The notes below the pieces were generated by a model that saw only the letters and a list, made by a program, of their open reading frames with translations, did not search any database and was not told where the DNA came from. DNA of 23,372 bases from a virus. Positions within the stretch are counted from its first letter, which is position 1, and every line of letters begins with the position of its first letter. Location of the stretch: positions 2,086 to 25,457 of the IMG/VR virus record IMGVR_UViG_3300023196_001581; one strand, written 5' to 3'. Positions 1,064-23,121 of this stretch are shown one piece after another. The position numbers were made by a program, and so were the translations under genes.

Positions 1064-1077
1064 TATACTAATGCAAA
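1064..1077 (-). promoter_or_regulatory. phage-type promoter motif, copy 1 (upstream of DUF2800 gene)
   Basis: Reads TTTGCATTAGTATA on the minus strand, an exact match to the consensus built from seven copies in this window (TTTGCATTAGTRTA). It lies 31 nt upstream of the nuclease ATG and directly follows a terminator hairpin, so it restarts transcription after the previous operon. Confidence 0.7.
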
Positions 1078-1711: not shown

Positions 1712-1787
1712 TGGTGGAGGTGGACGGGATCGAACCGACGACATTATGCTTGCAAAGCATACGCTCTCCCAACTGAGCTACACCCCC
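1712..1787 (-). tRNA. tRNA-Ala (TGC)
   Basis: Full cloverleaf on the minus strand with encoded CCA. The acceptor GGGGGTG pairs with CACCTCC and includes G3:U70, the alanine identity pair. The D arm is TAGCTCAG..GAGAGC, the anticodon loop carries TGC inside ATGCT-TTGCAAG-CAT, and the T arm is GTTCGATCC. All elements are intact, so it is probably functional. Confidence 0.95.
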
Positions 1788-1797
1788 GTGTAAAACT

Positions 1798-1880
1798 TGG
1801 TGCTGGAGGTCAGACTCGAACTGACGTACCTTTCGGGGCGGCTTACAAAGCCGCTGCAATTGCCGCTATGCGACTCCAGC
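1798..1880 (-). tRNA. tRNA with anticodon TGT (nominal Thr) but a long variable arm
   Basis: 83 nt including encoded CCA. The acceptor GCTGGAG pairs with CTCCAGC, A73 is the discriminator, and the D stem is 3 bp (GCA/TGC). The anticodon stem GCGGC/GCCGC closes the loop TTTGTAA, which gives anticodon TGT. The T arm is GTCAG-TTCGAGT-CTGAC. The variable region is 12 nt with a small CC-CGAAA-GG hairpin, which is class II (Leu/Ser/Tyr) form, whereas bacterial tRNA-Thr is class I. It lies 10 nt upstream of the Ala tRNA in the same transcript. Confidence 0.85.
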
Positions 1881-2768: not shown

Positions 2769-2782
2769 TACACTAATGCAAA
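2769..2782 (-). promoter_or_regulatory. phage-type promoter motif, copy 2
   Basis: TTTGCATTAGTGTA on the minus strand, followed by a leader of about 110 nt with hairpins and the pseudoknot before ATG 2655. Upstream lies AGGGCGGTTTTAC, the same 13 bases and the same 9-nt spacing to TGCATTAG as in copy 6 at 19269. Confidence 0.7.
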
Positions 2783-2800
2783 AAATACTGTAAAACCGCC

Positions 2801-3025
2801 CTAGTCCGGAATGATGATCGTCTTTTTGGGTTTGGACGGGGGTGTTTTGTTTATGGCGCTGTGTAGGTGAGGCATTACATCATTTAGCATCATCTTGGCC
2901 ATTGCCGCAGCCTTTTCTTGATGCTCTATCTCCTGCTGTGCTGTGGTCATTTTAGCTTTACGCTCAACCTCAGCTATGATGTTGTTGCTTATACCTGCTC
3001 GGCTAAGCAGTTGCTTTAGATTCAT
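2801..3025 (-). CDS. hypothetical protein
   Basis: 74 residues, helical and charged, with a middle rich in Ala/Met/Lys and a PPSKPKKTIIIPD tail. Not recognised. Its start overlaps the 3' end of the previous gene by 23 nt, so it belongs to the leftward operon led by the region-4-like gene at 4617. It is the last gene before phage-type promoter copy 2. Confidence 0.6.
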   Translation of the reverse strand: MNLKQLLSRAGISNNIIAEVERKAKMTTAQQEIEHQEKAAAMAKMMLNDVMPHLHSAINKTPPSKPKKTIIIPD

Positions 3026-4137: not shown

Positions 4138-4303
4138 TTCTCATCTCCTTAAGTTCTTTTTCCATAATTTGTAACTCCTCCGAGCTGTCACAAACCCAGA
4201 TCCCCAATAAATCTTTATACATGCTAGTGTCAATATCCTCCACACCAGTAATTGTTTCCATAACATAATAGCCTTTGTATTTATGTTCTACAATAAAGTT
4301 CAT
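4112..4303 (-). CDS. hypothetical protein
   Basis: 63 residues, acidic N-terminal half and a charged helical C-terminus. Not recognised. Its ATG overlaps the stop of the region-4-like gene as ATGA, so it is co-translated with that gene. Confidence 0.6.
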   Translation of the reverse strand: MNFIVEHKYKGYYVMETITGVEDIDTSMYKDLLGIWVCDSSEELQIMEKELKEMRNARSSEQT

Positions 4304-4617
4304 ATCTTTAATTCCTTTTTGATAAAATCAATGCCCTTTGCGAAATGATACCGCCAATACTTTTCTGTTACGTTAATGTTGTGATAATTTTGTCCATCTA
4401 AAAATGATTCAATAACAAACTGTTGTTTGGTTGGCATTTTTTCAACGATCAATCTACGGATGTCTGCAATATCTTCTGGGTCCCATGGAAGCCATCCTTC
4501 CACAATTTGCACCGACGAGTTTTCTGTTTCGTCTTGCTCAATGGGGTCAACGTCTTCGTCTGATAACCTAGGCGCTATAGCATTGATTTTGTGTTTTGTT
4601 TTTGTTCTTTTGCTCAT
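4300..4617 (-). CDS. sigma region-4-like HTH protein, paralogue A
   Basis: 105 residues. A basic N-terminus and an acidic linker lead to a C-terminal helical domain (about 55-105): MPTKQQFVIESFLDGQNYH, then NVTEKYWRYHFAKGIDF, then IKKELKI. This aligns with the C-terminus of the 13234-13539 protein (shared P.KQ, EK.WRYH, KGI, K.L) and has the layout of a shortened sigma70 region 4.2. The window's sigma factor lacks region 4, so this may be a split-off region-4 partner or a co-activator like T4 gp33 (inference). Promoter copy 3 lies 6 nt before the ATG, with no Shine-Dalgarno site. Confidence 0.65.
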   Translation of the reverse strand: MSKRTKTKHKINAIAPRLSDEDVDPIEQDETENSSVQIVEGWLPWDPEDIADIRRLIVEKMPTKQQFVIESFLDGQNYHNINVTEKYWRYHFAKGIDFIKKELKI

Positions 4618-4619
4618 GC

Positions 4620-5963
4620 CTATACTAATGCAAAATTTAGGGCGTTTAAAAGGGCGTCTTGTAAATTTATTTTTCCGTCCAAAACTTTAACTACGTGCCC
4701 GTCAATACTATTAGACACAATTAGATGGTGTATGATAACAGGCTTTTCCTGCCCTTGGCGATAAATCCGGGCGTTGGCTTGGATGTAGTTCTCTGAGCTC
4801 CAGGGTAGGTCATACCAAACGGTTTGTGCCGTCTCTCCAACGTTGCACTGGAGATTAAGCCCGATGCCCCCAGATTGTGGGTGTGCGAGTAACATACGAA
4901 TCTCGCCACGACGCCACGCTTCAATGTTGTCATCGTCCAAGACCACGGCGTCCGGGAAAGTGAGCCGAAGCCTTTGCAGACTGTGCTTGAAGTGGTAGAA
5001 TACAAGCGCTGGGGAGGAGGACTCTTCCATGATCGACTCAAGACGTTCCAATTTAGAACGGTGTACTTCTTGCGCTTCTCCATCTTCGTTATAAACGGCG
5101 CCCGATGTGAACTGGAGAAGTTTGTTCGCCAATGCTGCTGCTGTTGGCGCTGTGATGGTTTGCTTCCCAATTTCAGCGACCATGTCTTTTTTAAGTTGTT
5201 CATACTTTGCCCTTACATTTTTGTCTATCTCAATGTCGTGGTGTAGCTTAGTGCACTCAGGCAGTTGCAGGTAGTCCTCGGCCTTTAACGAGTAACAGAT
5301 ATCAGATATTTTTTGATTCAATATCAGATCACACCCCGGCTTTAACTTCCAGCTATATACCACCCGTGTATGGCGGTTCATTTGGTCAGGTGTCATATAC
5401 TTGTCCCTAAACCGGGTTAGGCTGGTCTCTAAGCGCGCACCTAAGTCCAGTATACCCACCTGTGACCAGAGATCCTGCATGCCTTGAGGGGTAGGTGTGC
5501 CTGTGAGAATTAAACGCCGTGAGAAGCTCTTTAAATGCTTCTTAAGCGCCTTAAAACGTTTGGTGCTGGCATCCTTAAACCGGCTAGACTCGTCAATTAC
5601 TAAGTTAGTAAACACTAACTTATTTGAAAGTTCACAAAGCCACGCCACGTTCTCTAGGTTAATCAGATAAATGTCTGCTTGCGAAGTCAAGGCGGACAAT
5701 CTCTGTGTCGGGTTCCCCATTATTTTCGATACGCGTAAATGGCTCAGATGTTGCCATTTCTTTACCTCCGTGTCCCACACTGTCTCCGCTACTCTCTTGG
5801 GCGCGATGATCAGTGTCTTGCCCTGGAATTGCTCCGCTATTATGGTAAGCGTTGTAGTGGTCTTGCCCAAGCCCGGCGGTAAAAAGAGCCCCATATTTGG
5901 TATCGAAATTGCCTTCTGAATAATTTCCTGTTGGTACTGGTGTAGTTGTGTTCTTTTGAGCAT
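4620..5963 (-). CDS. SNF2-family (SF2) DNA helicase/translocase
   Basis: 447 residues. Superfamily 2 motifs appear in order: Walker A GLGKT (31-35), motif II VIDESSRFKD (122-131, a DES variant of DEAH), motif III LTGTPTP (153-159), motif V SGGIGLNLQ (364-372), and motif VI QANARIYRQGQ (395-405). This is the compact phage SNF2 type, usually found next to a VRR-NUC gene as here. Its likely role is ATP-driven DNA or fork remodelling in replication. ATG 5963 is supported by an in-frame TAG just upstream. The first 305 nt are overlapped by an open frame of the HNH gene. Confidence 0.9.
   Translation of the reverse strand: MLKRTQLHQYQQEIIQKAISIPNMGLFLPPGLGKTTTTLTIIAEQFQGKTLIIAPKRVAETVWDTEVKKWQHLSHLRVSKIMGNPTQRLSALTSQADIYLINLENVAWLCELSNKLVFTNLVIDESSRFKDASTKRFKALKKHLKSFSRRLILTGTPTPQGMQDLWSQVGILDLGARLETSLTRFRDKYMTPDQMNRHTRVVYSWKLKPGCDLILNQKISDICYSLKAEDYLQLPECTKLHHDIEIDKNVRAKYEQLKKDMVAEIGKQTITAPTAAALANKLLQFTSGAVYNEDGEAQEVHRSKLERLESIMEESSSPALVFYHFKHSLQRLRLTFPDAVVLDDDNIEAWRRGEIRMLLAHPQSGGIGLNLQCNVGETAQTVWYDLPWSSENYIQANARIYRQGQEKPVIIHHLIVSNSIDGHVVKVLDGKINLQDALLNALNFALV
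4621..4634 (-). promoter_or_regulatory. phage-type promoter motif, copy 3, inside the helicase stop region
   Basis: TTTGCATTAGTATA on the minus strand. It encodes the last residues of the helicase (FALV), and the following G completes the helicase TAG stop. TGCATTAGT ends exactly 6 nt before ATG 4617 of the region-4-like gene, so the transcript is predicted to be leaderless. Confidence 0.75.
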
Positions 5964-10948: not shown

Positions 10949-10967
10949 TTATTCCTCTTTTATTGTC

Positions 10968-10981
10968 TATACTAATGCAAA
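10968..10981 (-). promoter_or_regulatory. phage-type promoter motif, copy 4 (primase-helicase)
   Basis: TTTGCATTAGTATA on the minus strand, 19 nt upstream of ATG 10948 and, unlike the leaderless copies, followed by a Shine-Dalgarno site. The adjacent AATCAATGGCTTAC (10981-10994) belongs to a repeated 14-mer also present in both palindromic elements. Confidence 0.7.
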
Positions 10982-11020
10982 ATCAATGGCTTACGGCTTT
11001 CACGATGTGAAATAAATTCT

Positions 11021-11040
11021 AAATGAGAATGATTATCATC
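11021..11040. promoter_or_regulatory. Fur-box-like operator (element 1, left)
   Basis: AAATGAGAATGATTATCATC resembles the enterobacterial Fur box GATAATGATAATCATTATC. It lies 12 nt outside the left arm of palindromic element 1, and an inverted partner flanks the right arm (16 of 20 bases match). Confidence 0.5.
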
Positions 11041-11052
11041 TGTTTCTAATAG

Positions 11053-11212
11053 AATCAATAACTTAGACTAATTTCGACGGGGTGACGGGGGTAGCGTACC
11101 CTTTTTACTCTTTTTTAAAATAAAAAAAAATAAAACGTAAGTAGGGGGAAAGAACGTGGAAAACACCCCGCAACCCCCGTCACCCCGTCGAAATTAGTCT
11201 AAGTCCTTGATT
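11053..11212. repeat. palindromic element 1: 40-bp inverted repeat around an 80-bp A/T-rich loop
   Basis: Left arm 11053-11092 and right arm 11173-11212 match at 38 of 40 positions. Each arm carries the tandem GACGGGG-TGACGGGGG. The loop contains a hairpin plus T-tract, a long A-rich run and AACGTAAGTA. Bases 11076-11194 are a 119-bp core shared in direct orientation with 16374-16492. Together with flanking Fur-like sites it forms a nested palindrome of about 225 bp. It could be a replication origin with inverted iterons and an unwinding region, or a regulatory or recombination site. No gene is seen between 10949 and 11321. Confidence 0.85.
11089..11106 (+). terminator. intrinsic terminator-like hairpin in element 1
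   Basis: GGGTA (11089-11093) pairs with TACCC (11097-11101) across a GCG loop and is followed by TTTTT. It would stop plus-strand transcripts entering the element. It is conserved exactly in element 2. Confidence 0.5.
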
Positions 11213-11519: not shown

Positions 11520-11860
11520 TCCTCTTCCTTTATGATTGAGTAAGTGTCACGCACCCTTGGCTCCTCCTCATTCCAGTTGTCAGATGTGCCGTAGTCACCC
11601 CGAATAGCACTCATGCGCTCAGACTTTCGGCACTCAGGCTCAATTGCCCACCACTTCTCGGATGCCTCTAGATACTCAAACCACTCATCGTTGCGCTCGT
11701 ACAGTGGGTGGTTGAGCCCTGCGGTCTCTACTGCGGTGTATTGCCTCTGTGGTACGTGGGCGTGCTTAGCGTAGTCCTTTGTACGCACTACACCCGCTTT
11801 ATTGCGCGCGGTAATGAATCGACTATATGCACTGGCCTGCTCTTCTGTTAAATGAATCAT
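11516..11860 (-). CDS. hypothetical protein
   Basis: 114 residues, charged and rich in Glu, Arg and aromatic residues. Segments such as EEQASAYSRFITARNKAG and HVPQRQYTAVETAGLNHPLY suggest a folded helical protein. No family recognised. It is co-translated with the sigma factor upstream (ATGA overlap), so a role connected to transcription control is possible but unsupported. Confidence 0.65.
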   Translation of the reverse strand: MIHLTEEQASAYSRFITARNKAGVVRTKDYAKHAHVPQRQYTAVETAGLNHPLYERNDEWFEYLEASEKWWAIEPECRKSERMSAIRGDYGTSDNWNEEEPRVRDTYSIIKEEE

Positions 11861-12432
11861 TCTTCTATTTCCTCGTAGTGTTTGTCTTCTGCAATACTAT
11901 CTAAACTAACTGGCTCTTTGTTTATATGACCACGCAGTTGGTGAATCTTTGCCGTTGTGGTATCTAAAATAGTAGCCAGCTCGTGGACTGTTGGCTTACG
12001 CCCTAATACTTGAGATAATGCCCTTTCGTTGTAGTTTAGTTTTTTAATAGCCTCGGCGATATTAACTGGTAGCCTGATAATGTTGCTTGTGTTGTCCAGC
12101 TCCCTGCGCACACCCTTGAGTATAAATGACTTGGCATAGGTAGCAAACTTGGCATTGTTGGTCGGTTTCCAACGCCTAGCCGCGATTAGTAACTGCTCGT
12201 TACCCATCGCTAGTATGTCCTCCATTGGCACCTTGCCGTGTTGCCATGCCGTCATCTTGGTTACTACATGCGAGACAAAACGTAAATTATGTGTGACTAA
12301 TTTATTTAATGCCTGATCGTCACCTTTTTGTATACGCTCTGCCAGTGCATGCTCCTCCAGTGTCGATAACGGCTCTATGCCGTATAGAGATTGTAGGTAG
12401 TCAGTCTTAATGTCTTTTGTGCTACTTGTCAT
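11857..12432 (-). CDS. sigma70-family factor lacking region 4
   Basis: 191 residues. Region 1.2 is near 13-36, region 2.1 at about 40-60 (LVTHNLRFVSHVVTKM), 2.2 at 70-90 (MEDILAMGNEQLLIAARRW) and 2.3-2.4 at 91-124 (KFATYAKSFILKGVRREL, then IIRLPVNIAE). Region 3 covers 125-168 (GRKPTVHELATILDTTT), and the chain stops in 3.2 (PVSLDSIAED..) with no region 4. T4 gp55 is likewise a minimal late sigma without a canonical region 4. It would direct core polymerase to phage promoters, probably the TTTGCATTAGTRTA set (inference). It belongs to the operon transcribed from the sigma70 promoter at 13215-13244. Confidence 0.85.
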   Translation of the reverse strand: MTSSTKDIKTDYLQSLYGIEPLSTLEEHALAERIQKGDDQALNKLVTHNLRFVSHVVTKMTAWQHGKVPMEDILAMGNEQLLIAARRWKPTNNAKFATYAKSFILKGVRRELDNTSNIIRLPVNIAEAIKKLNYNERALSQVLGRKPTVHELATILDTTTAKIHQLRGHINKEPVSLDSIAEDKHYEEIEE

Positions 12433-13214: not shown

Positions 13215-13244
13215 ATTATAGTCTAAGTCGTTACTAATTGTCAA
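13215..13244 (-). promoter_or_regulatory. host sigma70 promoter for the early operon
   Basis: On the minus strand, TTGACA (13244-13239), an 18-nt spacer, then TATAAT (13220-13215): both hexamers are perfect. The -35 lies in the last codons of the region-4-like gene. The -10 sits inside a near-palindrome TTAGAC-TATA-ATCTAA, a plausible operator. It drives 13192 to 11322, including the sigma factor. Confidence 0.85.
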
Positions 13245-13539
13245 ATAATTTTTTTCTCATGGATTTTATTCCCTTTTCTAGGTGGTATCTCCATGTCTTT
13301 TCAGATACCCCAATGTCTTCATGTGTATTGCCCCTCATAAAAGCAATAACCATGCGGTGTTGTTTTGGTTCCAGTCTGCTTACCAATTTCCACAACAAAC
13401 GTTGGTTTATTGTTGGTATTTTGGTGTCTACAAGAAATTCAACGGCATCATCATTGATAAGATCAAGCTCCATGATGTCGGGTAGCTCTTCCCATAATTT
13501 TGGGGATATTGGCTTTAGTCGCGCCTGTTTTCTGTACAT
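13234..13539 (-). CDS. sigma region-4-like HTH protein, paralogue B
   Basis: 101 residues. The C-terminal half (about 53-101) reads RLEPKQHRMVIAFMRGN, then HEDIGVSEKTWRYHLEKG and IKSMRKKL. That is a region-4.2-like helix-turn-helix with a shortened first helix. It is homologous to the protein at 4300-4617, while the N-terminal halves differ. It lies directly upstream of the operon holding the region-4-less sigma, which supports a split-sigma arrangement (inference). Its 3' end contains the -35 of that operon's promoter. The start overlaps the preceding stop as TAATG. Confidence 0.65.
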   Translation of the reverse strand: MYRKQARLKPISPKLWEELPDIMELDLINDDAVEFLVDTKIPTINQRLLWKLVSRLEPKQHRMVIAFMRGNTHEDIGVSEKTWRYHLEKGIKSMRKKLFDN

Positions 13540-14601: not shown

Positions 14602-14624
14602 AAAATCTCCTGTGTGTTGTGTGT

Positions 14625-14676
14625 GGTCATCATCAGTGCACGCCTAACGTGCATACACCTCGCGGTGTTTCGACCT
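14625..14676 (-). repeat. double-hairpin leader R1 (52 nt)
   Basis: 50 of 52 bases are identical to R2 at 15034-15085. As minus-strand RNA it forms ACACC-GCGA-GGTGT (a GNRA tetraloop) and GCACG-TTAGG-CGTGC. It covers the last codons of the 14644-14868 gene and ends about 24 nt before the ATG of the 14206-14601 gene. Both differences from R2 fall outside the stems. Probably an mRNA processing, stability or translation-control element. Confidence 0.75.
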
Positions 14677-15016: not shown

Positions 15017-15033
15017 ATTAACTCCTTTGTGTT

Positions 15034-15085
15034 GGTCATCATCAGTGCACGCATAACGTGCAGACACCTCGCGGTGTTTCGACCT
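15034..15085 (-). repeat. double-hairpin leader R2 (52 nt)
   Basis: Second copy of the element at 14625-14676. Hairpins: ACACC-GCGA-GGTGT and GCACG-TTATG-CGTGC. It fills the gap between the 15089 stop and the AAGGAG ribosome site of the 14873-15016 gene. A related CTCCTTTGTGTTGGT string recurs at 15350 without the hairpins. Confidence 0.75.
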
Positions 15086-15883: not shown

Positions 15884-15905
15884 TGCGAATGAGAATCATT
15901 ATTAT
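15884..15905. promoter_or_regulatory. Fur-box-like operator, direct repeat copy 1
   Basis: TGCGAATGAGAATCATTATT followed by AT; 21 of 22 bases match the copy at 15926. It matches the Fur-box core AATGATAATCATTATC at 14 of 16 positions. Confidence 0.55.
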
Positions 15906-15925
15906 CTGCACTGCTCGGGCCTAGA

Positions 15926-15947
15926 TGCGAATGAGAATCATTATCAT
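15926..15947. promoter_or_regulatory. Fur-box-like operator, direct repeat copy 2
   Basis: TGCGAATGAGAATCATTATC followed by AT; it matches the Fur core AATGATAATCATTATC at 15 of 16 positions. It is 42 nt from copy 1 (start to start), four helical turns, so both lie on the same DNA face. Confidence 0.6.
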
Positions 15948-16300
15948 GTAGCCCTGTTGCGCACTGAGCGGATCGGGGCGCGGAACCATTCCACATTATG
16001 AGATGCCATACCACAATGCGGTACAGGCTATGTTAGTGCGCACTAGGTGAGTGGCTCACTGCCTGAGCTACCGCACTGCCCCAGTGCCTACTAACTTAGT
16101 GCACCAATGTGGTGCGCCCCAGTGTGTACTTACTTACTTAGTGCACCAAAACAGTGCATAGGGGGCTTTTCTATAAGGCAATGCACCAATTTGGGTCCTG
16201 TCGGAGGGTCTGAGGCAGAGGCTCCAACCAAACCTGAGTTTTTGTATTTTCTTCCAGAAACACTCTTTTGCAGGGAAAACCCTAACTTCTAAATTTTTTT

Positions 16301-16329
16301 TTGAAAAATTCTAAAAACTAAATGATAAT
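16301..16329 (+). promoter_or_regulatory. sigma70-type promoter overlapped by a Fur box
   Basis: TTGAAA (16301-16306), a 17-nt spacer, then GATAAT (16324-16329). The -10 lies inside the palindrome 16320-16340. Transcription would start near 16336 and meet the terminator-like hairpin of element 2 about 50 nt later. Confidence 0.55.
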
Positions 16330-16340
16330 CATTATCATTT
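16320..16340. promoter_or_regulatory. Fur-box-like palindrome (best copy)
   Basis: 21-bp palindrome, perfect around the central base 16330. Bases 16321-16336 read AATGATAATCATTATC, identical to 16 consecutive positions of the 19-bp Fur consensus. Overlap with a -10 element is the usual layout for Fur repression. Confidence 0.65.
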
Positions 16341-16373
16341 GCGTTACCTAAAATCAATGACTTACAGAGGTTT

Positions 16374-16492
16374 GACGGGGTGACGGGGGTAGCGTACCCT
16401 TTTTACTATTTTTTATAAAATTTTTTAAAAAATAACGTAAGTACTGGGGGAGGGTGAAATATGGTCCGCAACCCCCGTCACCCCGTCGAAAT
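16374..16492. repeat. palindromic element 2 (119-bp core, direct copy of element 1)
   Basis: Same length as the core of element 1, with identical outer blocks (GACGGGGTGACGGGGG.. and ..CCCCCGTCACCCCGTC), the same hairpin plus T-tract, and AACGTAAGTA; only the A/T-rich loop and a G-rich spacer differ. It is preceded by AATCAATGACTTAC (16352-16365) and the Fur-like palindrome, in the same order as element 1. It lies 5,298 bp from element 1 in direct orientation. Confidence 0.85.
16387..16404 (+). terminator. intrinsic terminator-like hairpin in element 2
   Basis: GGGTA (16387-16391) with TACCC (16395-16399), then TTTTT. It would stop transcripts from the 16301 promoter before the late genes, giving either insulation or attenuation. 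Confidence 0.5.
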
Positions 16493-16532
16493 GTAGGTTT
16501 ATTTTTAAAAACAGGACGATACGCTTATATTC

Positions 16533-16546
16533 TTTGCATTAGTGTT
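16533..16546 (+). promoter_or_regulatory. phage-type promoter motif, copy 5
   Basis: TTTGCATTAGTGTT. TGCATTAGT ends 6 nt before ATG 16550, with no Shine-Dalgarno between, so the mRNA is predicted to be leaderless. It heads the rightward packaging/portal operon. Confidence 0.75.
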
Positions 16547-16549
16547 AGT

Positions 16550-16858
16550 ATGAGCAAATACGTTTACCAAATACAAGGGGCACTGGAAAATCCCCAAGGC
16601 CAGTTTATTGGCCTTAGAGTATTGGTATGCAATATAGACTTCTTGGACATGGTTGATGTACCTGTAGAGATACTAGACGCCGAGACTGTTAAGTATATGC
16701 AATTTAGACTTTCCATTACCGCAGAGCCAGTTAACATTGCTGCACTGCCCGTGGAAATGCAAAACAAGATACGCACTCCGTTAGGGAGATGGCTGGACCG
16801 ATGGGTTCTTGAAAACTTTTATGGCGATAACCGCAAACACAAAGATACTAACTCTTGA
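16550..16858 (+). CDS. hypothetical protein, first gene of the rightward late operon
   Basis: 102 residues from ATG 16550, chosen because the promoter motif lies 6 nt upstream; an ATG at 16454 is open but lies inside palindromic element 2. Beta-rich start (MSKYVYQIQGALENPQGQF), hydrophobic middle and a WLDRWVLENFYGDNRK end. Not recognised. It overlaps the Hint gene by 38 nt. Confidence 0.65.
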   Translation: MSKYVYQIQGALENPQGQFIGLRVLVCNIDFLDMVDVPVEILDAETVKYMQFRLSITAEPVNIAALPVEMQNKIRTPLGRWLDRWVLENFYGDNRKHKDTNS

Positions 16859-17813
16859 TTATTGGAAACCAGCGTCTCAGCTGGAAGTAGGTGACTGGGT
16901 ATTTGACCGTAACGGTAATCCTGTCCAGATCAAACTAACTCAACAATATCATAGCGCTGAGTGCTATGAGGTAATGTTTAATGATTTTCTCACCATCACT
17001 GGTGATTTTAAACTGACACTTCCAGTAGAAACTATCAAATACCGTAATAGGCTACACACGTATAAGGGCAAATTGACATTTCGCCGCCCACTAAAACTGT
17101 TTACCGCCGACCAAATTACACAAACCTCACTCTTAGATTCGCGTAACCGCAAAACTTTGTCGGTTCCTACCGCACATCCTTTACAACTCCCCCATAAAGA
17201 TTTACCCATACCCCCATTTCTATTTGGCTTTTGGTATTTTTCACGTAGATCCACTGGAAGATTGGCTGCGGCCCCTGGAACTGCTGAGTATGTACACCAA
17301 AAGTTTAAAGACCATGGGTATAAAGTCAGAACGCATGCCTTAATTGACACGGGAGAGCGTGATTTTTCTACAGAGCCTAGCATTACGCGACAGCTTATAC
17401 CCAATACCCCAAAAATTATACCAAATAATTACTTACTTGCTTCTGCTGAACAACGCCAAGACTTACTCTCTGGGATTGTTTGCGCAAAACCTAGGCAATA
17501 CAACAAAAGACAAGACACTTTTAGGGTAACATCTAAAAATTATGACACAATGCGCAGGGTTCAGTTGCTTGCTGAGTCCCTTGGGTCCCGAGCAAAGCTC
17601 TACCACGACCCACATAAGCAAGACTATACCGTTTTTTTTAAATCTAGGTTACCTTTAATCCCGGGTCAAGCATCACCGCCGGTAAAAGTTCACTATGGCC
17701 GCAGGTATATCACAGAAGTCACACCAATTGCCCAACAGTTGTGTGTTCATTTTGAAACCACTGGCGAAGATAACACTATTTTAGCAGGAGAGGGCTTCAT
17801 ACCATGTCTTTAA
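16821..17813 (+). CDS. free-standing intein-like (Hint) protein with degenerate LAGLIDADG endonuclease
   Basis: 330 residues from ATG 16821. The N-terminus follows intein block A and the adjacent strand region (ITANTKILT, then LEVGDWVFDRNG). The splicing Cys1 position is Ala, directly after the initiator Met. Block B is TITGDFKLTLP with the usual His replaced. Two LAGLIDADG-like helices, FLFGFWYF (133-140) and DLLSGIVCAK (214-223), lack their acidic catalytic residues or retain them poorly. Block F, LCVHFETTGEDN through ILAGEGF, is followed by IPCL in place of the His-Asn/Cys junction. Protein splicing is therefore not expected. The last codons overlap the TerL start by 10 nt in another frame. 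Confidence 0.75.
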   Translation: MAITANTKILTLDYWKPASQLEVGDWVFDRNGNPVQIKLTQQYHSAECYEVMFNDFLTITGDFKLTLPVETIKYRNRLHTYKGKLTFRRPLKLFTADQITQTSLLDSRNRKTLSVPTAHPLQLPHKDLPIPPFLFGFWYFSRRSTGRLAAAPGTAEYVHQKFKDHGYKVRTHALIDTGERDFSTEPSITRQLIPNTPKIIPNNYLLASAEQRQDLLSGIVCAKPRQYNKRQDTFRVTSKNYDTMRRVQLLAESLGSRAKLYHDPHKQDYTVFFKSRLPLIPGQASPPVKVHYGRRYITEVTPIAQQLCVHFETTGEDNTILAGEGFIPCL

Positions 17814-19249
17814 CACCAAAACAAGAAGCAGAACTTAAAAAATTTGCTATTGCAAGGCCACATTGGCCTAAACCACAGCTTGATGCCGCTATTTGGCGTA
17901 TTAAATGGGCCTTACAGGCACTACCACATCAAAAAGAACCAGATGATAACGAATATGACACATTTCTTATGCTTGCCGGACGGGGATCTGGTAAAACGCA
18001 CACTGCGAGCCATTGGATTGGCATTCGTGCTTGGATGTATGACCACACCCGCTGGCTCGTCACAGCGCCCACCTCAAACGATATACGTGCAACTTGTTTT
18101 GAAGGAGACTCCGGACTTCTCAATATCATTCCCGCCAGCCTCATCCGGGACTACAACAAATCCCTTTTTGAAATTACCCTCACCAACGGATCCATCATCC
18201 AAGGAATACCGGCGTCCGAACCGGAACGTTATCGTGGTAAACAATATCATGGAGCCTGGTTCGACGAGCTGTGCGCATTTGACTATCTTGACGATGCCTA
18301 TGACGGTGTACAGTTTACCCTCCGTCTTAAAGACCCCAGAATCCCTCGGGTGCAGCAGATTATCACCACCACCCCAAAACCTAAGGAACTCATTGTAGAC
18401 CTTAACGAAGGTAAAATAGGGGGTGATGTATATGTAGTAAATGCAAGCTCTTTTGACAACCGCGAAAACCTTTCAGAAACCTTTTTTAAACAATTAGATT
18501 CTTATGATGGCACAGATTTAGGTAGGCAGGAGATTTATGGTGAAATCCTTGACCCAGAGTCTTCAGGCATTATTAAACGTAAAATGTTTAAAATGTGGCC
18601 GGCCAACAAACCCACTCCAACCTTAGAATATGTAATTGCCTCGTATGACCCCGCTACTAGCGAAAAAACAATGAACGACCCGACCGCCTGTGAGGTATGG
18701 GGTGTATTTGACAGAGAAGACGCGGGCACTTGTGTTATACTACTTGACTGCTGGGACAACCATTTATCATACCCTGAGCTGCGTCGTAAAGTAATTGATG
18801 ATTTTAAAGAGGTTGTCTATGGTGCGGATAATGACTTTGGTAAAGGTAAAAAAGCAGACCTTATACTCATGGAGGATAAATCAGCTGGTATTTCTTTAAT
18901 TCAAGAACTTCAAGGCGCTGGGGTGCCGGTACGTGGATATAACCCAGGACGCGCCGATAAGGTGCAACGATTAAACATTGTAGCCCCGCTTGTTGCTAAG
19001 GGAAAGGTATTTATACCAGAAGACCCAAACAAACCCGGTGAGTACGCAGATTGGGCAAAACGCTTCCTACGGCAGGTTTGTTCGTTTCCGGAGGCTGGAG
19101 GCCATGACGACTACGTTGACGCCCTCAGCCAGGCCCTACGCGTCCTCAGAGACTCTGGTTGGTTGCAGCTAGATCCCCTGCCGGTACGTGACTATGATTA
19201 TGCAGATGATGACGCCAGAAAGAAGTTTAGCAATCCATACGCCCAATAA
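17804..19249 (+). CDS. terL: terminase large subunit (TerL)
   Basis: 481 residues. ATPase: Walker A AGRGSGKT (58-65), Walker B with WFDEL (152-156) and coupling motif TTTPKP (188-193). RNase H-like nuclease: Asp282 in ASYDPATSEKT, E357/D358 in LMEDKS, and D435/D436/D439 in HDDYVDAL. It powers DNA packaging into the procapsid and cuts the concatemer. The length is typical and no intein is present. AGGAGAGG lies upstream of ATG 17804, which overlaps the Hint stop by 10 nt. Confidence 0.97.
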   Translation: MSLTPKQEAELKKFAIARPHWPKPQLDAAIWRIKWALQALPHQKEPDDNEYDTFLMLAGRGSGKTHTASHWIGIRAWMYDHTRWLVTAPTSNDIRATCFEGDSGLLNIIPASLIRDYNKSLFEITLTNGSIIQGIPASEPERYRGKQYHGAWFDELCAFDYLDDAYDGVQFTLRLKDPRIPRVQQIITTTPKPKELIVDLNEGKIGGDVYVVNASSFDNRENLSETFFKQLDSYDGTDLGRQEIYGEILDPESSGIIKRKMFKMWPANKPTPTLEYVIASYDPATSEKTMNDPTACEVWGVFDREDAGTCVILLDCWDNHLSYPELRRKVIDDFKEVVYGADNDFGKGKKADLILMEDKSAGISLIQELQGAGVPVRGYNPGRADKVQRLNIVAPLVAKGKVFIPEDPNKPGEYADWAKRFLRQVCSFPEAGGHDDYVDALSQALRVLRDSGWLQLDPLPVRDYDYADDDARKKFSNPYAQ

Positions 19250-19268
19250 GGGCGGTTTTACCTGTCTT

Positions 19269-19282
19269 TGTGCATTAGTATA
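19269..19282 (+). promoter_or_regulatory. phage-type promoter motif, copy 6
   Basis: TGTGCATTAGTATA, one mismatch to consensus. TGCATTAGT ends 9 nt before ATG 19289, with no Shine-Dalgarno. AGGGCGGTTTTAC lies upstream at the same spacing as in copy 2. It starts a portal transcript. Confidence 0.7.
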
Positions 19283-19288
19283 ATTAGA

Positions 19289-19846
19289 ATGGACTTTCTT
19301 AAAACCCCCCAACAAATGCTATTAGAACAGTCGCAAGCTCAACCGCAGGCTCCTGTTCAAAACAACATGCTAAAGACCCCACAGCAAATGCTGATGGAGC
19401 AAACTGGCTTGCCCCAACAATACATGTATGCAGACGGCGGGTCAGTTGGAATGTCACCACAAGATATGTTAGCCGCAATTATTGCAGCTAACCAGACACC
19501 CCAAAAGTTTGCAGCAGGCTCGTTAGTTAAAAATATTGCAGGACAATCTGCATTTCAAGTTCCTTTTGCTGGTGATTACGCAGCTAACATTGCAAACAAC
19601 ATGCAAGCACAAAAATACCCTGAGGCTGCGGTAAATGCAGCAGACCTTGGATACTCAGCATTTGCCCCTCTAAACGCACTTACAGCGGGAGCAAGCCTAA
19701 TGGGTTACTCACCAGAGGTTGGGGATGCCACACTTGAAGGTTGGAAAAAGCAAGAAATGGAGCGCCAGTTAATGGAGCAGTACAAGGCTAAGTTAAAAAC
19801 AGACCAACTACAAAAAATTAAAGAAACCAGATTTTACAAAAAATAA
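19289..19846 (+). CDS. probable virion-associated protein with internal repeats
   Basis: 185 residues from ATG 19289, set by the promoter motif just upstream. Gln/Met/Ala-rich. FLKTPQQMLLEQ, MLKTPQQMLMEQ and GMSPQDMLAAI form a threefold repeat near the N-terminus. An ADGGS motif and a KFAAGS segment are followed by an Ala/Asn-rich middle and a charged helical C-terminus. The position between TerL and portal suggests a structural or assembly role (inference). No family recognised. Confidence 0.65.
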   Translation: MDFLKTPQQMLLEQSQAQPQAPVQNNMLKTPQQMLMEQTGLPQQYMYADGGSVGMSPQDMLAAIIAANQTPQKFAAGSLVKNIAGQSAFQVPFAGDYAANIANNMQAQKYPEAAVNAADLGYSAFAPLNALTAGASLMGYSPEVGDATLEGWKKQEMERQLMEQYKAKLKTDQLQKIKETRFYKK

Positions 19847-22892: not shown

Positions 22893-22912
22893 AGGGCGGA
22901 TTTCTCCGCTCT
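22893..22912 (+). terminator. hairpin between portal operon and promoter copy 7
   Basis: AGGGCGGA pairs with TCCGCTCT (8 bp with one G-U) across TTTC. There is no T-run, so termination may be partial. It directly precedes promoter copy 7. Confidence 0.45.
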
Positions 22913-22926
22913 ATTGCATTAGTGTA
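22913..22926 (+). promoter_or_regulatory. phage-type promoter motif, copy 7
   Basis: ATTGCATTAGTGTA. TGCATTAGT ends 6 nt before ATG 22930, with no Shine-Dalgarno, the same geometry as copies 3 and 5. GGGCGG lies 21 nt upstream of the core, as in copies 2 and 6. Confidence 0.75.
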
Positions 22927-22929
22927 AGT

Positions 22930-23121
22930 ATGAAAGACTTTATTTCCGAAGTTATTTCGCGGACGCGAGATGAGCAAACAAGATTGGCGGAAACCCTCAC
23001 CGCTGGAAGTAATGTCAACTCCTTTGATGATTACCAACGATTAGTTGGCAGACATGAAGGATTTAAAGTGGTATTAGACATTATTAATGAAATTTTGAGG
23101 GAAGACGAAGAAGACCTGTAG
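22930..23121 (+). CDS. small helical phage protein
   Basis: 63 residues: MKDFISEVISRTRDEQTRL, then DDYQRLVGRHEGFKVVLDI and an acidic tail. The pattern of an amphipathic start helix, a YQ.L.GR..G turn and a second helix recalls a common small protein encoded near phage portal and head genes; function unknown. Predicted leaderless translation from promoter copy 7. The co-chaperonin gene follows 20 nt downstream. Confidence 0.7.
   Translation: MKDFISEVISRTRDEQTRLAETLTAGSNVNSFDDYQRLVGRHEGFKVVLDIINEILREDEEDL

Follow-up and report, generated by a model that had tools for sequence, protein, structure and literature searches.

The stretch of viral DNA analyzed here (the window; 23,372 nucleotides [nt], positions 2086 to 25457 of the 25,457-nt record IMGVR_UViG_3300023196_001581) contains seven exact copies of the motif TGCATTAGT, four of which end 6 or 9 nt before an ATG. 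Judging from comparisons with related loci, we are confident that these copies belong to a class of extended -10 promoters read by a phage sigma factor, that transcription from them starts on an A, and that the mRNAs of three genes (g102, g63, and r4A) are leaderless. In the proposed mechanism, the host core RNA polymerase carrying a phage sigma factor without region 4 (encoded at 11857 to 12432, minus strand) would read TGCATTAGT promoters, with TG at -15/-14 and the hexamer ATTAGT at -12 to -7. Transcription would start on the A that comes after a discriminator of 6 nt; the same A would open the AUG of g102, g63, and r4A and give leaderless mRNAs, and the g185 mRNA would have a 3-nt leader. 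The remaining promoters of the class would start at the same position and yield leaders, many with a Shine-Dalgarno (SD) sequence. A subset (portal, g63, and others) would add AGGGCGG at -37 to -31, an element missing from the promoters of replication genes. The fixed motif-to-ATG spacing, a pyrimidine at -1 with A at +1 (Y-1/A+1), the fixed -35 box, the lack of SD sequences, and the co-variation of the -10 element with sigma were shown by sequence comparison, from which we infer the start site and the identity of the reader. A family of freshwater bacterial viruses appears to begin some of its messages directly at a gene's first base by means of its own promoter-reading protein, and ribosomes would then need to initiate without a landing site.

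Motif copies in the window and their spacing in relatives

As stated in the first-pass annotation, three copies are followed by exactly 6 nt and then ATG: copy 3 (4624 to 4632, minus strand), copy 5 (16535 to 16543, plus strand), and copy 7 (22915 to 22923, plus strand). Their predicted +1 positions (4617, 16550, and 22930, respectively) are each the A of the ATG of r4A (4300 to 4617, minus strand), g102 (16550 to 16858, plus strand; the first gene of the rightward arm), and g63 (22930 to 23121, plus strand). The 9 nt reported between copy 6 (19271 to 19279, plus strand) and the ATG of g185 (19289 to 19846, plus strand) were also confirmed; with a predicted +1 at 19286 and a leader of 3 nt (AGA), g185 would be near-leaderless. 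Copy 3 overlaps the 3' end of the SNF2-type helicase gene, the stop codon of which occupies 4620 to 4622.

The other three copies had been described as having normal leaders, a statement that is only roughly right. It is true of copy 4 (10971 to 10979, minus strand; primase gene), with a predicted +1 at 10964, a 16-nt leader, and the SD sequence GAGG. Copy 1 (1067 to 1075, minus strand; DUF2800 gene) has a predicted +1 at 1060 and a leader of 27 nt whose SD sequence is weak, and copy 2 (2772 to 2780, minus strand; predicted +1 at 2765) has a long leader, with the next open reading frame (ORF; 2398 to 2655) about 110 nt off. An eighth copy is located on the same contig outside the window (G000:C1:1518-1529, minus strand). 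With one mismatch allowed, the 9-mer gave 12 matches versus 8.1 expected, a count that is not unusual; the case for the motif therefore rests on its position.

Relatives were collected by IMG/VR searches with the terminase, sigma, and primase, which yielded approximately 170 new loci (approximately 230 including full-contig stretches). When class variants of the motif (see below) were allowed, motif-N6-ATG was found in all 60 distinct 20-nt sequences upstream of g102 orthologs (128 loci; in one row of three loci, the apparent deviation is only a shift of the tblastn start) and in 28 of the 30 distinct sequences upstream of g63 orthologs. One of the two g63 exceptions, L077, has the same promoter, but with an SD-containing leader of 11 nt downstream of it, so that leaderless and leadered forms can interconvert. 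Leaders predicted for r4A orthologs are 0 or 4 nt long, and those for g185 orthologs are 0, 3, 10 to 11, or approximately 21 nt long.

Annotated phage relatives contained no match to r4A and one distant match to g63, in the Manatee Spring record MW202545 (L106); the motif was not found before the annotated starts examined from that record. MW202545 repeats TAGTCAGACTAGTA before 8356 (the g63-like gene) and 13929 (another gene), perhaps as a regulatory site of its own. Three phage contigs fell in one betaproteobacterial metagenome-assembled genome bin, a hint too weak for naming a host.

Predicted transcription start and translation from the 5' end

We numbered 215 nonredundant promoters from the first T of the motif. 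ATG begins precisely at position 16 in 63 of them. In the other 152, a pyrimidine is found at position 15 in 95% and A at position 16 in 89% (both in 134), and there is no translational cause for keeping the A in these promoters. The sites were not chosen by these letters, whereas the motif class of each genome was. Alignment of upstream sequences on the conserved A brought out a -35 box, AGGGCGG or close to it, which lies at -37 to -31 from the predicted +1 A in 52% of 162 nonredundant promoters and at any other offset (-70 to -23) in 3% or less. An IMG/VR pattern scan made without protein seeding (GGGCGG, a gap of 8 to 22, and TTGCATTAGT) gave a gap of 14 in 104 of 125 distinct sites among the matches listed, versus 4 for the runner-up gap; of 100 sites read at -1 to +3, 51 had TAGG and 45 had TATG, again among the matches listed.

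The arrangement of elements matches the extended -10 type, with the TG at -15/-14, the hexamer at -12 to -7, and a 6-nt discriminator; G(-14) is invariant by class definition, and T(-15) occurs in three of the four motif classes. Because promoters without ATG keep Y-1/A+1, the -35 box is fixed relative to that A, and the elements are arranged as in extended -10 promoters, the placement of +1 on the A of the ATG (g102, g63, and r4A) or 3 nt upstream of the ATG (19289) is well supported. The earlier suggestion that the RNA begins at or next to the AUG gains support from the same comparison of relatives.

Other explanations of the motif were considered. It seems quite improbable that transcription starts well upstream, leaving ordinary leaders and making the motif an operator or processing site. 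Sigma70-like matches are present upstream of 16550, yet overall they are no more numerous than in shuffles. The -35, -10, and initiator elements are spaced as in a promoter with +1 on the A of the ATG, leadered members retain Y-1 A+1, and no SD sequence is found upstream of the leaderless starts. Several copies have TATAGG at the start point, which recalls promoters of T7-type single-subunit RNA polymerases, but the gene for such a polymerase was not found in 15 records of up to 66 kb (no PF00940 match; the T7 control was positive at 1e-109). Moreover, a -35 box at -37 to -31 is typical of sigma promoters, and 15 of 19 records encode a sigma factor, which co-varies with the motif; a T7-type promoter is therefore very improbable. 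A promoter of the phiKZ-type non-virion RNA polymerase is unlikely because the layout is of the sigma type; no search was made for a multisubunit polymerase. Lastly, the fixed motif-ATG distance in several genes could suggest that TGCATTAGT-N6-ATG acts in translation, as a non-SD ribosome site, and not as a promoter. This we regard as extremely improbable, given that the same combination of motif, -35 box, and initiator can lie as far as approximately 110 nt from the nearest start, as in copy 2, and that TAGG replaces TATG in many relatives.

TAGTAT was rejected as the -10 hexamer, since the two bases past the motif are variable and the conserved A would not fall at +1. A scan of the collection for motif-to-ATGAA distances was swamped by chance matches. 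In several leadered transcripts (downstream of 2765 in the window and in L089, L176, L011, and G011), a stem-loop could form with its first base at +1 to +3 (for example, AGGACA...TGTCCT). Such 5' stem-loops were only approximately twofold enriched and were not used as an independent marker of +1.

We called SD sequences at an anti-SD pairing energy of -4.5 kcal/mol or better. None of the 63 leaderless members has one, versus 45 of 87 leadered promoters of the same class. The four window starts located 6 or 9 nt past the motif, which the first-pass annotation had recorded as lacking SD sites, indeed pair at +0.1 to +0.7 kcal/mol, compared with a median of -5.35 kcal/mol for 40 window genes. 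The start codon is solely ATG in g102 (126/126 orthologs) and g63 (60/60 orthologs), which fits the strong preference for AUG in leaderless initiation in Escherichia coli and Caulobacter (reviewed in PMC9031893), and the codon-position variation pattern of g102 starts at the ATG. Leaderless members with ATG only and no SD sequence, versus leadered members that often have one, suggest that one promoter class serves two translation modes, as had been proposed, and that the leaderless members would be translated from a 5'-terminal AUG. An N-terminal extension upstream of the ATG was rejected: no upstream codon signature was detected, and in-frame stops precede any other start in 39 of 77 g102 and 31 of 40 g63 sequences.

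Transcription might start at the AUG while translation proceeds chiefly from longer read-through transcripts, with leaderless initiation being incidental. Most genes here are located in packed operons, and r4A starts 2 nt past the helicase stop, which would permit translational coupling. However, g102, g63, and r4A lack SD sequences on longer transcripts too, so that initiation at g102 and g63 would be poor on read-through RNA, and ATG is held at +1 in relatives despite the varying discriminator sequence. We judge a chiefly read-through origin of translation to be rather unlikely and favor initiation on leaderless mRNAs.

The candidate reader and two promoter tiers

The phage sigma factor (191 amino acids [aa]) comprises regions 1.2, 2, and 3. 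Its profile matches bacterial SigA/RpoD chains over regions 1.2 to 3 (1e-34); Pfam matches were obtained for region 3 (8e-8) and, just under the cutoff, for region 2 (6.6e-5). By both Pfam and profile comparison, region 4 is absent, with the protein stopping after region 3.

Four versions of the motif were distinguished: A, TTGCATTAGT; B, [GA]CGTATTAGT; C, TTG[CT]ATTATT; and D, TTGCATTAAT. All four retain G(-14), ATTA, and T(-7). A single version was used per genome in 113 of the 119 contigs with at least two sites, and three to five class changes were required on the sigma trees, versus 7, 8, 9, and 12 on the r4A, terminase, primase, and helicase trees, respectively. Because the motif classes switch genome-wide and follow the sigma tree better than the four other gene trees, the phage sigma factor is most likely the reader of the motif. 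In L073, L083, L204, and L177, the primases group with those of A/C/D genomes, yet the sigma factor and promoters are of the B type; in L073/G012, the primase's own promoter is also B type.

In sigma70, the part that includes residues 440 to 461 makes contact with the TG and with the upstream half of the -10 element. Class B sigma factors differ at residues 109, 111, 124, 126, and 130, which align to sigma70 residues 440, 442, 455, 457, and 461. Sigma residue 92 is a possible determinant of position -8: where this base is G (classes A and B), the residue is N; where it is T (class C), the residue is G, A, or K; and where it is A (class D), the residue is K.

The promoters fall into two tiers according to whether they have a -35 box. 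Among nonredundant promoters, the box is missing from those of the primase (0/28), DUF2800 (0/15), DUF2815-like (0/5; named by resemblance), and r4A (0/3) genes. It is present in those of g63 (12/12), the portal gene (16/16), the ORF behind copy 2 (19/19), g185 (6/6), and two further gene clusters (13/15 and 7/7), and g102 promoters have a degenerate version (20/51). Accordingly placed copies of AGGGCGG accompany copies 2 (2796 to 2802, minus strand), 6 (19249 to 19255, plus strand), and 7 (22893 to 22899, plus strand) in the window, and copy 5 has the -35-like element AGGACGA (16513 to 16519, plus strand). Copies 1, 3, and 4 have no -35 box; copy 3 has CCCTTTT at 4648 to 4654 instead. The two tiers would correspond to middle and late genes.

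The r4A protein (105 aa) is a sigma-region-4-like helix-turn-helix protein that may read the -35 box. In its family, 12 of 37 members match Pfam Sigma70_r4_2 (best, 4.5e-5). The helix-turn-helix part was modeled at a pLDDT (predicted local distance difference test) score of approximately 90, and the leading Foldseek matches were mostly sigma region 4, with E values of 0.5 or worse. A paralog, r4B (13234 to 13539, minus strand; 101 aa, 27% identical), has an ordinary SD start; it is a second region-4-like protein, recognized as such in this genome only. In a two-step program of a split sigma factor acting on one -10 element, the region 1.2 to 3 half alone would fire the extended -10 promoters in front of replication genes, the leaderless r4A gene among them, and r4A, the region 4 half, would next join and open AGGGCGG-bearing promoters. 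Our judgment of this program is evenly balanced. If it is true, leaderless starts at promoter-proximal genes would link part of the two-step program to 5'-AUG initiation.

Several points weigh against the overall account. L216, L234, and L239 combine classes C and D, and the co-variation of motif and sigma partly reflects shared descent because the sigma tree covers clades. The equivalent of E458, the expected reader of G(-14), predominates in every class yet is not invariant, and L220 has an A-type sigma factor with B-type promoters. The likeness of r4A to region 4 is weak by E value. In approximately half of the g102 sequences, an in-frame start is found upstream, ahead of the first stop, and translation of r4A might be coupled to that of the adjoining helicase gene. 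L220 has nearly the same sigma factor and primase as L218 and L219; its B-type promoters are at r4A and DUF2800, and L218 and L219 have an A-type promoter at g102. The L220 contig may be recombinant or misassembled.

Genes in the leftward arm of the window encode DUF2800, the SNF2-type helicase, a primase-helicase, and the sigma factor, and those in the rightward arm encode the terminase and portal. Repeated blocks before the primase gene and between the arms (11018 to 11194 and 15884 to 16492) contain four copies of AATGAGAATCATTATCAT, as well as GACGGGGTGACGGGGGTAGCGTACCC and its inverted counterpart CCCGTCACCCCGTCGAAAT, and are perhaps a replication origin or operator. A 334-aa ORF before the terminase gene (16809 to 17813, plus strand) resembles intein/Hint and LAGLIDADG proteins (weak Pfam LAGLIDADG_3 match; E value, 0.0055). 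Genes for tRNA-Ala(tgc) and tRNA-Thr(tgt) are located at 1712 to 1880 (minus strand) beside an ORF (1885 to 2292) with HNH-like cysteines and histidines. A 53-nt direct repeat (14624 to 14676 and 15033 to 15085) is 96% identical, with its copies 409 nt apart.

Comparison with known systems

The leaders of phage T4 late mRNAs are, as far as is known, ordinary. Like the T4 gp55/gp33 "split sigma" (PMC2988020), the system described here would use separate small proteins for promoter reading and for mimicking region 4, and T4 late promoters are likewise recognized in a manner akin to the extended -10 type. Unlike here, T4 gp33 does not resemble sigma factors in sequence, T4 late promoters have no -35 box, and the gp45 clamp is needed (PMC2988020).

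A closer likeness in the sigma factor itself is offered by phiEco32 gp36, which lacks region 4 and reads single-element promoters (tAATGTAtA) with a start 6 to 8 bp downstream (PMC8948821). Both systems have a region-4-less phage sigma factor and one -10-like element, which serves middle and late genes in phiEco32 and may do so here. In phiEco32, however, the motif sequence differs and gp79 is used; neither a -35 subset, a separate region-4-like protein, nor a systematic promoter-ATG fusion is reported in PMC8948821. The phage 7-11 sigma factor gp47 reads bipartite promoters (GTAAtg-(16)-aCTA) before late genes, which resemble the promoters with a -35 box, but both parts are read by one protein and there is no -10-only class (PMC8948821).

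Leaderless phage mRNAs are already known (PMC5312081, PMC9031893). The lambda cI mRNA also has a 5'-terminal AUG and no SD sequence (PMC9031893), but cases of this type are single ones under the host sigma70, whereas here several genes would have their ATG joined to promoters of one whole phage-sigma class, an arrangement that is conserved. Late promoters of the phiKZ non-virion polymerase share TATG at the start point; they are read by a multisubunit phage polymerase that starts on G (PMC5312081), in contrast to the sigma-type promoter and inferred start on A proposed here. A literature search for the motif string returned only unrelated papers among the matches listed. As far as our searches reached, the conserved fusion of a phage-sigma promoter with the start codon, the natural specificity classes, and the -35 subset are new. 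The natural co-switching of sigma factor and promoter in four versions provides a ready data set on how sigma reads the -10 element, and the split by presence of the -35 box points to a simple way in which a divided sigma factor could work. Known leaderless phage mRNAs are scattered; here, many uncultured freshwater phages share a conserved fusion, and this makes the question of when and why a phage uses 5'-AUG initiation testable.
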